Assembly (NCBI RefSeq): GCF_000373645.1
Contig: NZ_KB892006.1
Span: 124,001 to 188,000, forward strand
Direction of reading: 5' to 3'
Length of the DNA: 64,000 nt
Source of the DNA: Streptomyces sp. ATexAB-D23
GTDB taxonomy: Bacteria; Actinomycetota; Actinomycetes; Streptomycetales; Streptomycetaceae
The notes below the pieces were generated by a model. The model was not told the origin of the DNA, made no database searches, and saw nothing but the letters and a program-made list of their open reading frames with translations. Positions 60,219-64,000 of this stretch are shown here, piece after piece (within the stretch, counting starts at the first letter, position 1; each line of letters opens with the position of its first letter). Position numbers and translations under genes: made by a program.

Positions 60219-60616
60219 GGCCTTCCCGAGGGGTCGGTGGGCCGCGTGGCCCCGTCGGCCACCGGCTGGAGGGTGCTGAAGGTCCTGGCCGGATCAGGGA
60301 GCGGCGTCCGGTGCGGGCGGCTGCGAGTCGCCGGAGCGCCTCCATGGCGGAACCATTGAGGCGATTCGGTAACGCGCAGACGTGCGTCCCGGGCGCCGCG
60401 GGCCCGGCCGGGGCCTTCAGCACCCTCCGCGCCCATCGTAGTCACGCCCGGGGCCCCGCACCGTCCGGGCACCCCGGACCCCGGCGCCCCGGGCCCGGCG
60501 CGCGAGATATGGACGCGGCCGTGAGGGAGTGCAAAGCTCGAACTACCGCGGGCGTCGCCGCAGCCGCCGCGGCGGCTCTCCCGTGCCCGTGCGCCAGTCG
60601 ACGGAAGGCACGAACC
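60219..60616. other. Divergent gap between pgsA and the EF-G-like gene
   Basis: This 398-bp region has no gene I can support. It holds the 161-bp inverted-repeat element (60268-60428) and, after it, a very GC-rich stretch. It presumably contains the divergent promoters. Confidence 0.7.
60268..60428. repeat. 161-bp element with 25-bp terminal inverted repeats (MITE-like)
   Basis: Arms 60268-60292 and 60404-60428 match at 23 of 25 positions. The two differences are T/C changes, so transcribed from the plus strand the two arms would pair at every position through G-U. Inside is a second hairpin GCCTC.ATGG / CCAT.GAGGC (about 60331-60355). It has no transposase. I saw no clear target duplication. 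A non-autonomous element or a structured RNA is possible. Confidence 0.7.
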
Positions 60617-62824
60617 ATGGGCGACAAGGCACACGCACACACCGGGGCCGCCGGAGGAACACCGGCGGCCGGCCACCCCCGCACCCTGCGCAACGTGGTG
60701 CTGGTCGGCCACAGCGGATCCGGCAAGACCACCCTCGTCGAGGCGCTCGCGCAGACCGCGGGCGCCGTCAGCCGGCCCGGCCGGGTCGAGGACGGCACCA
60801 CGGTGTCCGACCACGAGGAGATCGAGCACCGCCGGAACCGGTCCGTACAGCTCTCCCTGGTCCCCGTGGAGTGGGGCGGGTGCAGGATCAACCTGCTGGA
60901 CACCCCCGGTTACGCCGACTTCGTCGGGGAGCTCAGGGCCGGGCTGCGGGCGGCGGACGCGGCCCTCTTCGTCGTCTCGGCGGCCCAGGAGGCCGAGACC
61001 GTGGCGGGCACCACCCGTGCCGTGTGGGAGGAGTGCGCCGCGGTCGGCATGCCCCGCGCCATCGTGGTCACCCATCTCGACACCGCGCGCACCCCCTTCG
61101 ACGCGATGACCCGGATCTGCGGCGACCTCTTCGGCGCCGACGACCCCGACGCCGTACTGCCCCTCCACCTGCCGGTGTTCGGCCCCGAGGCCGCCGACGG
61201 GCACGCCCCGCTGACCGGACTTGCCGGCCTGCTCTCCCAGCGGGTCTTCGACCACTCGGGCGGCGAACGGACCGAACTCCCGCCGGCCGGGGACCAGCAG
61301 GCACCACTGGCCGAGGCCCGCGCCCGGCTGATCGAGGGGATCATCGCCGAGAGCGAGGACGAGACCTTGATGGACCGCTACCTCGGCGGCGAGAGCCTCG
61401 ACATCAAGACACTCACCGACGACCTCGAACGTGCCGTGGCACGCGGCACCTTCCACCCCGTCCTGGCCGCCGCACCGGCCGCCGACGGCGCCCGCCTGGG
61501 CATCGGCACCGTCGAACTCCTGGACCTGATCACCGGCGGCTTCCCGACCCCGCTCGAACACCCGCTGCCCGCCGTCACCACCCCGGACGGCGCCCCGCTC
61601 CCCGCCCTCGACTGCGACCCGCTGGGCCCCCTGGTCGCCGAGGTCGTCAAGACGTCCTCCGACCCGTACGCCGGGCGCCTCTCGCTCGTCCGGGTCTTCT
61701 CGGGCACCCTGCGACCCGACGACACCGTGCACGTCCACGGGCACGGGCTCGACGACCCCGGGCGCGAGGACCGGCCCTGCCACGAGGCGCGCACCCGCGT
61801 CGGCGCCCTGACCTCGCCCTTCGGGAAACAGCAGCGCCCCATCGACGCGTGCGTCGCCGGGGACCTCGCCCGGGTCGCCCGCCTGGAGTCCGCCGAGACC
61901 GGCGACACCCTTTCCGCCACCGCCCAACCGCTCCTGATGGAGCCCTGGACCATGCCGGACCCGCTGCTGCCGGTGGCCGTCCGGGCACACAGCAAGGCCG
62001 ACGAGGACAAGCTCTCGCACAGCCTGGCCCGCCTCGTCGCCGAGGACCCGGCCATGCGCCTCGAACAGAACCGGGACACCGGCCAGCTCGTCCTGTGGTG
62101 CCTCGGCGAAGCCCACCTCGACGTCGCCCTCGACCGGCTGCGCGACCACTACGGCGTACAGGTCGACACGGTCGCGCACCGCGTCGCGCTGCGCGAGACG
62201 TTCGCCGGGCCGGCGAGCGGGCTCGGCCGCCACGTCAAGCAGTCCGGCGGCCACGGCCAGTACGCGGTCTGCGAGATCGACGTCGAACCGCTGCCGGCCG
62301 GCTCCGGCATCACGTTCGTCGACCGGGTCGTCGGCGGATCGGTGCCCCGCCAGTTCATCGCGTCCGTCGAGAAGGGCGTCCGCGCCCAGGCCGCCCGGGG
62401 TGTCGCGGCCGGCCACCCCCTGGTCGACATTCGGGTCGTCCTGCGCGACGGCAAGGCGCACTCCGTGGACTCCTCCGACGGCGCCTTCCAGACGGCCGGC
62501 GCCCTGGCCCTGCGCGAGGCCGCGACCGACGCGCGCGTCCGGTTCCTGGAACCCGTCGCCGAGGTCCGCGTCCTCATACCCGACGACTACGTCGGCCCGG
62601 TCATGAGCGACCTCTCGGGCCGCCGCGGCCGGGTCACCGGCACCGAGCAGTCGGGCTCCGGCCGCACCCTCGTACGCGCCGACGTGCCCGAACTGGAGAT
62701 CGACCGGTACGCGGTCGACCTGCGCTCGCTGACCCACGGAACCGGCCGGTTCAGCCGCTCGTACGCCCGCCACGAACCCATGCCCGCCCAGCTCGCCGAC
62801 CGCGTCCGCGCCCAGGACGGGTGA
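60617..62824 (+). CDS. fusA2: EF-G-like translation GTPase paralogue with altered catalytic motifs
   Basis: This 735-residue protein has the five-domain EF-G layout. P-loop VGHSGSGKTTL (31-38), switch region EDGTTVSDHEEIEHRRNRSV, G3 DTPGYADFVGEL (95-99), then domains II-V with GQLVLWCLGEAHLDVALDRL, HGQYAVCEIDVEPLPAGSG and SDLSGRRGRVTGTEQSGSG. The conserved catalytic His of DTPGH is Tyr99 and the NKxD of G4 is THLD (152-155). GTP hydrolysis is probably impaired. I recall the mycobacterial EF-G2 paralogue as non-canonical. The ATG at 60617 has GGAAGG 9 bases upstream. Confidence 0.93.
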   Translation: MGDKAHAHTGAAGGTPAAGHPRTLRNVVLVGHSGSGKTTLVEALAQTAGAVSRPGRVEDGTTVSDHEEIEHRRNRSVQLSLVPVEWGGCRINLLDTPGYADFVGELRAGLRAADAALFVVSAAQEAETVAGTTRAVWEECAAVGMPRAIVVTHLDTARTPFDAMTRICGDLFGADDPDAVLPLHLPVFGPEAADGHAPLTGLAGLLSQRVFDHSGGERTELPPAGDQQAPLAEARARLIEGIIAESEDETLMDRYLGGESLDIKTLTDDLERAVARGTFHPVLAAAPAADGARLGIGTVELLDLITGGFPTPLEHPLPAVTTPDGAPLPALDCDPLGPLVAEVVKTSSDPYAGRLSLVRVFSGTLRPDDTVHVHGHGLDDPGREDRPCHEARTRVGALTSPFGKQQRPIDACVAGDLARVARLESAETGDTLSATAQPLLMEPWTMPDPLLPVAVRAHSKADEDKLSHSLARLVAEDPAMRLEQNRDTGQLVLWCLGEAHLDVALDRLRDHYGVQVDTVAHRVALRETFAGPASGLGRHVKQSGGHGQYAVCEIDVEPLPAGSGITFVDRVVGGSVPRQFIASVEKGVRAQAARGVAAGHPLVDIRVVLRDGKAHSVDSSDGAFQTAGALALREAATDARVRFLEPVAEVRVLIPDDYVGPVMSDLSGRRGRVTGTEQSGSGRTLVRADVPELEIDRYAVDLRSLTHGTGRFSRSYARHEPMPAQLADRVRAQDG

Positions 62825-62978
62825 GCCGGAACACGCCGCCGCGCCACCCGTTGTCCACAGGGCCGGACGGCGTACGTATCCGGACGATACGCTGGGACCC
62901 CAGCTCAGAAAGTGTGCCGGGCACGGCAGTTGGGAAACAGCCGCAGGAGCGGTTCCTCGGTGGTGAGTGGGGGCGACA

Positions 62979-64000
62979 GTGGCCAGCAACGGATTCGATT
63001 TCTCTCCCGGAGCGCAGATTCCGCTCCAGGGGTCGGCAGGCGCGGCGGTGGCGACCAATGCCCTCGCCTCCGCCGCGTACCGCGACAGCCCGGTGGAGGA
63101 CATCCTCAAAGCCAACAGCGAGTGGCACAAGTCCGAGGTGAAGGCGGGCCGTTCCACCTTCCTCAAGTCGGACTACTTCAAGCCCAACCTCGGTGAGGCC
63201 TTCTCCCGCGCCGTCCAGGAACGCATGCTGGGCGGGGCGCGCGGCGCCCTCATCCAGTCCTTCGGGAGTGACCCGCAGACCGTCGTGGAGCACTGCCTGT
63301 CCGCGTCCCGCCTGCGCAAGGCCCGCGACACCAAACTCACGGCCATCACCGCCCTGTTCGGGTTCGTGTTCCTGCCCGGCATGCTGCTGTGGGTCATCGT
63401 CTTCCGGCTGCGCGACGGCCTGGCCAAGACCACGGACAAGTCCCTGACCGCCCTCGGCAACAGCCTGCTGCCGATCTTCGGCATCGGGCTCGTCTTCCTC
63501 ATGGTCAAGCTGCCGGTGACCGGAATCCTGGGGCTGTATCTGCGCGCGATGGTCGTCGCCCCGGTCATCGGCTGGTACCTCGCCAAACGGATCGCGGAGA
63601 AGTCGGCCCAGGACCTGCGCGCCCGCTGGGAGGGCCTGCTCTCCGGGGGCGGCATCACCGCCAAGATCCCCGAAGCGGTCCCCAAGAACCCCAGCGAGAC
63701 GTCCCGCGAGGCGCTGCGCCAGGGCCTGGAGAAGCTCTCCGCCGAGCAGCAGTCCAACTCCGTGTTCTACGCCGGCCCCAAGGGCATCCTCGGCATGGGC
63801 ACCCGCTGGGGCAGCTGGCAGCTCGCCGAGGACCTCGTCTCCAAGGACCCGGGCAAGGAATTCCACCAGTTCCGCAGCTGGGACCTGATCCGCGTCATCC
63901 ACGACCAGCTCAAGATGCTGGAGCGCGGCCCGCTGAACACCGGCGGATTCCCCACCCCCTCGGTCACCCACTGGATCGTCTCGCCCGTCGGTGAGAACGC
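62979..64000 (+). CDS. Membrane protein of unknown function (3' end outside window)
   Basis: 340 codons are open to the window edge, with no stop. It starts VASNGFDFSPGAQIPLQGSAGAAVATNALASAAYRDSPVEDILKANSEWH at GTG 62979. Predicted membrane helices lie at about residues 120-143, 163-180 and 183-203. Then come a soluble Lys/Glu-rich helical part (SAQDLRARWEGLLSGG..AVPKNPSETSREALRQGLEKLSAEQ) and FYAGPKGILGMGTRWGSWQLAEDL. I do not recognise the family; Streptomyces relatives are likely. It follows the EF-G-like gene by 154 bp on the same strand. Function cannot be given. Confidence 0.85.
   Translation, partial: MASNGFDFSPGAQIPLQGSAGAAVATNALASAAYRDSPVEDILKANSEWHKSEVKAGRSTFLKSDYFKPNLGEAFSRAVQERMLGGARGALIQSFGSDPQTVVEHCLSASRLRKARDTKLTAITALFGFVFLPGMLLWVIVFRLRDGLAKTTDKSLTALGNSLLPIFGIGLVFLMVKLPVTGILGLYLRAMVVAPVIGWYLAKRIAEKSAQDLRARWEGLLSGGGITAKIPEAVPKNPSETSREALRQGLEKLSAEQQSNSVFYAGPKGILGMGTRWGSWQLAEDLVSKDPGKEFHQFRSWDLIRVIHDQLKMLERGPLNTGGFPTPSVTHWIVSPVGEN

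Follow-up and report, generated by a model that had tools for sequence, protein, structure and literature searches.

EF-G2 of Mycobacterium smegmatis (fusA2, MSMEG_6535) reportedly binds guanine nucleotides, has no ribosome-dependent GTPase and appears in stationary phase. It is said to be unable to rescue an E. coli EF-G ts mutant and to be dispensable for the cell, and its loss reportedly costs fitness in competition. The Seshadri 2009 work on this protein is cited in PMC9067457 and PMC8446442, and the former, a review, describes the protein as being without GTPase activity. One of its structures carries the title "EF-G2 bound 70S ribosome complex of M. smegmatis" (PDB 9K0Z). For EF-G-2 of Thermus thermophilus (PDB 1WDT/2DY1), which belongs to the EFG II subfamily, ribosome-dependent GTPase and some poly(Phe) activity have been reported (PMC9067457, PMC3150367). 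A third system, EF-G2 of Bacteroides thetaiotaomicron, is likewise a non-essential paralogue, and PMC10294740 reports it as lacking GTPase and as induced under carbon limitation; it belongs to a different subgroup from the Streptomyces protein. Our literature search found no biochemistry of Streptomyces EF-G2, and no paper describing 9K0Z.

Identity of the gene

The window analysed here is a stretch of 64,000 nucleotides from Streptomyces sp. ATexAB-D23, and the features discussed below are collected in Table 1. Judged by its sequence, the gene in question is the Streptomyces orthologue of actinobacterial EF-G2 (EFG II, fusA2). The reading frame of 735 codons is complete, with an SD-like GGAAGG in front of the ATG and a TGA stop at 62822-62824; the start ATG was kept in all 77 Streptomyces relatives checked, GC3 of the frame is 94%, and TTA codons are absent. 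The protein scored 1149.1 bits against the NCBIfam equivalog profile NF009377 ("elongation factor G-like protein EF-G2", cut-off 890), with a match spanning profile positions 3-699 of 700. Scores stayed below the cut-off for the canonical EF-G profile TIGR00484 (410.3 bits, cut-off 659.4), the Bacteroides EF-G2 profile NF058620 (344.2 bits, cut-off 1000) and the tetracycline ribosomal protection profile NF012153, tet_protect (247.8 bits, cut-off 775). The nearest solved structure is that of M. smegmatis EF-G2, 9K0Z, with 59% identity over the full length.

Table 1. Features of the EF-G2 locus (positions in the window)
Feature	Position	Strand	Basis
Promoter-like element TATGGACG-N18-AAGCTCG upstream of EF-G2	60508..60540	+	Conserved spacing, 79/80 loci
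Conserved G+C-rich 5' leader (ACCGCGGGCGTC..AGCCGCC), possible hairpin 60547-60555 with 60583-60591	60541..60600	+	Leader alignment
EF-G2 (EFG II subfamily), 735 aa; domains G, G', II, III, IV, V	60617..62824	+	NF009377, Pfam, 9K0Z identity
G1 P-loop GHSGSGKTT, intact	60707..60733	+	G-x4-GKT kept in 87/87 Streptomyces EF-G2
G2 RNRSV for RGITI (Mg-binding Thr to Ser)	60833..60847	+	Ser in all Streptomyces members
G3 DTPGY, Tyr at catalytic-His position, residues 95-99	60899..60913	+	Alignment, 1WDT
G4 THLD for NKxD, residues 152-155	61070..61081	+	Alignment and tree

Two more EF-G genes were found in the same genome, both with RGITI, DTPGH and NKLD. One of them adjoins EF-Tu and was taken as the str-operon EF-G. 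The other (L002, G000:C13:115841-117883) is a second full EF-G with 781 bits to TIGR00484 and with DTPGH and NKLD intact, and is probably a fusB-type gene. As both retain DTPGH and NKLD, EF-G2 is a true paralogue, as the earlier note had supposed, and in the tree the two were split from all 70 EF-G2 rows with an SH-aLRT of 100. The canonical copy (fusA, str operon) of this genome is about 32% identical to EF-G2. The five-domain architecture is common to both, in agreement with the earlier observation that the other EF-G domains are kept: Pfam finds all of them (GTP_EFTU, domain II, EFG_III, EFG_IV and EFG_C), and the predicted fold aligns to solved EF-Gs with Z of about 40-44. What differs are the motifs, since RGITI, DTPGH and NKxD have all been changed, to RNRSV, DTPGY and THLD. 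The gene is largely an ordinary one, a copy of a spare translation factor already known from bacteria; the family itself is known, and the two extras seen here are modest, namely the erosion of the guanine-recognition motif and a promoter-like element that is conserved.

EF-G2 was over the cut-off in 110 of 121 Streptomyces genomes. A partial gene only was present in one (G160), and ten gave no match (G153, G156, G158, G184, G191, G224, G227, G258, G261 and G265), which indicates that EF-G2 is useful but dispensable. Where present, it is under purifying selection, with an overall dN/dS of about 0.19 (simple Nei-Gojobori estimates, 150 pairs of Streptomyces genes over 80% identical). By domain the values were 0.127 for G, 0.106 for domain IV, 0.11 for III and IV and 0.37 for G'. 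The constraint on the G domain, almost as strong as that on domain IV, suggests that nucleotide binding still matters. Almost without exception, the residues of the domain IV tip (KQSGGHGQY, HSVDSSD) and the acidic residues of G' did not vary across an alignment of 18 members.

G-domain motifs and their history

The motifs were compared in an alignment of 136 EF-G2 proteins, 87 from Streptomyces and 49 from other actinobacteria. At G2 the most frequent Streptomyces form is QQRSV (64 of 87), and RNRSV of the present gene likewise matches the actinobacterial EFG II motif, published as qqRSV (PMC3150367). The earlier note had pointed to DTPGY in place of DTPGH and to THLD in place of NKxD, and both replacements are there. 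Since all 87 Streptomyces proteins have this Tyr and, at G4, T-H, the substitutions are no sequencing artefact.

The reading of DTPGY as a lost GTPase found no support in the comparison. The residue at the catalytic-His position is Tyr in all 87 Streptomyces proteins and in 45 of the 49 from other actinobacteria; of the remaining four, two have Thr, one has Arg and one has His. Among 18 members from other actinobacterial classes with an intact NKxD, Tyr was found at G3 in 16 and Thr in two. By these alignments, Tyr at the catalytic-His site is an old trait of the EFG II subfamily; as it occurs together with intact NKxD, and in 1WDT, which is reportedly active, no loss of GTPase follows from Tyr alone. 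T. thermophilus EF-G-2 shares with the protein studied here the Tyr at G3 (in DAPGY) and Thr for Asn at G4, and retains the G4 Lys (TKLD), unlike it; the same Tyr together with TKLD in a reportedly active factor means that G3 by itself does not imply a missing GTPase. Consequently, DTPGY in an EF-G paralogue should not on its own be taken as proof that the GTPase is dead: Tyr is carried by almost all EFG II proteins sampled, and also by a reported active member. Two divergent actinobacterial EF-G2 proteins combine the motifs in other ways, one with DTPGH and TRLE at G4 (L101, G085) and one with DTPGR and THLD (L097, G062).

G4 is the informative motif. It reads THLE in 63 and THLD in 24 of the 87 Streptomyces proteins, TKxD in most other Actinomycetes, and NKxD in other actinobacterial classes. 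On a tree rooted with the EF-Gs of this genome, NKxD lies deep, TKxD or SKxD marks the class Actinomycetes, and THLD/THLE marks Streptomyces and a genus next to it, apart from a single occurrence elsewhere. As read from this tree, G4 has decayed stepwise along the actinobacterial lineage, from NKxD through TKxD to THLD/THLE, and the change of Lys to His is fixed in Streptomyces. M. smegmatis EF-G2 (PDB 9K0Z/9K10) is alike in its domains, in an RSV-type G2 and in DTPGY at G3, but has TKLD where the Streptomyces protein has THLD, and the G5 regions differ in length, one being shorter. With TKLD in both T. thermophilus (reported active) and M. smegmatis (reported inactive), and THLD/THLE in Streptomyces, a comparison would make the role of EF-G2 directly testable, and the eroded guanine motif poses a clear biochemical question.

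Function in translation

EF-G2 has kept its P-loop and, in G' and domain IV, the motifs that face the ribosome. Arguing by analogy with M. smegmatis, we lean towards a Streptomyces EF-G2 that is an accessory, non-essential factor, one that binds where translation factors dock on the ribosome and, when stimulated by it, turns over little GTP or none. Like the mycobacterial protein, from which this step is inferred, it would enter this site and place domain IV in the A site. Because both switch residues (Ser at G2, Tyr at G3) and the loop for guanine recognition (THLD) have changed, its hydrolysis of GTP on the ribosome is probably weak, if there is any. As a dispensable accessory factor it may occupy or slowly remodel ribosomes during slow growth, and the main job of translocase would stay with the str-operon EF-G.

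SCO1528 we take, from gene order, to be the S. coelicolor EF-G2 orthologue. It is listed in a modelled regulon of HrdB, the housekeeping sigma factor (PMC6344877), and a study of WblC (PMC7157823) mentions it as one of the EF-G paralogues; stress-only expression is shown by neither, and its place in the modelled HrdB regulon does not support it. The earlier proposal of a ribosome-bound factor without normal GTP turnover and with a stress or hibernation role stands in part: ribosome binding, weak hydrolysis and a stress or stationary-phase role fit the M. smegmatis reports and 9K0Z, the reading of DTPGY as a loss that on its own abolishes GTP turnover is not supported, and hibernation is a conjectural role in Streptomyces.

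Less probable, though deserving some weight, is a slow translocase that would bind without GTP hydrolysis, as Bacteroides EF-G2 is reported to do, and save GTP in starvation. Han et al., as cited in PMC10294740, describe a Bacteroides EF-G paralogue "lacking GTPase activity" and "GTP-independent translation" under carbon limitation. The catalytic His is likewise missing from PDB chain 7uvp, which is labelled TetQ yet has the Bacteroidetes EFG II G2 motif YGYSV and DCPGS at G3, and the conserved domain IV and A-site tips of Streptomyces EF-G2 would suit such a role. The Bacteroides-type chain, however, has NQLD at G4 and is of a different subgroup. Also, M. smegmatis EFG2 reportedly gave no rescue of the E. 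coli EF-G ts mutant.

It is rather unlikely that EF-G2 tolerates Tyr at the catalytic position and remains an active GTPase, as T. thermophilus EF-G-2 reportedly is, serving as a condition-specific elongation or recycling factor. Such a factor would agree with the reported activity of 1WDT, which has DAPGY and TKLD, with the Tyr and intact NKxD of most deep actinobacterial EFG II proteins, and with the purifying selection on the G domain, but not with the fixed Lys-to-His change at G4 in Streptomyces, nor with the reported inactivity of the closer relative from M. smegmatis. We are more doubtful yet of a Streptomyces EF-G2 that gave up guanine recognition and binds nucleotides non-selectively, or binds another nucleotide (ATP or an alarmone), as a nucleotide-gated, GTP-independent ribosome factor; the thought is based on the kept P-loop and on the change of NKxD to THLD/THLE in all 87 sequences. 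A TetM/Otr(A)-type ribosomal protection protein for tetracycline resistance is most improbable, as the similarity is distant (tet_protect, 248 bits) and far under the family cut-offs (248 of 775; 171 of 900), EF-G2 is above its own, and S. coelicolor has a separate tetM, SCO0783.

Flanking genes and upstream region

Downstream of EF-G2 lies a gene for a 560-aa membrane protein (window 62967-64000, continuing to L119:4649). It matched no Pfam or NCBIfam family. It follows EF-G2 in 79 of 80 fetched Streptomyces loci, the remaining one being cut off by a contig end, and in a comparison with 98 genomes of the class only Streptomyces gave good matches for it. A functional link between the two genes was considered and rejected: as both the adjacency and the good matches are limited to Streptomyces, synteny at the level of the genus explains the membrane neighbour and gives no evidence of shared function.

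Upstream, TATGGACG and AAGCTCG were found, with at most one mismatch each, in all 80 Streptomyces upstream regions checked, and 79 of them have the arrangement TATGGACG-N18-AAG[CG]TCG, in which precisely 18 bases separate the two parts. The exact pair of TATGGACG and AAGCTCG is present as a single copy in this 7.9 Mb genome. The fixed 18-base spacing suggests that the element is a promoter.

In the strongly conserved leader that follows, 98.8% of the cells of the hairpin were paired in 38 leaders, compared with 23-69% when slid; two-sided compensatory changes were absent among these 38, hence the hairpin is considered just possible. For the leader, all Rfam matches were weak and sub-threshold, to microRNA families and one sRNA. 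An Arg-rich upstream frame, YRGRRRSRRGG, occurred in 24 of the 80 leaders from Streptomyces, where shuffled sequences would give 0.15. A leader peptide was rejected, since frame, start and stop are inconsistent among relatives, some of which are without a usual start codon after an in-frame stop; with such inconsistency, it is simpler to suppose that DNA or RNA is what is conserved.

The gene upstream of EF-G2 is divergent and encodes a PIP synthase. CATCGTAGTCAC at window 60434-60445 was present in 80/80 loci with at most two mismatches. Read on the minus strand it is GTGACTACGATG, possibly a -10 region for the promoter of this PIP synthase gene.
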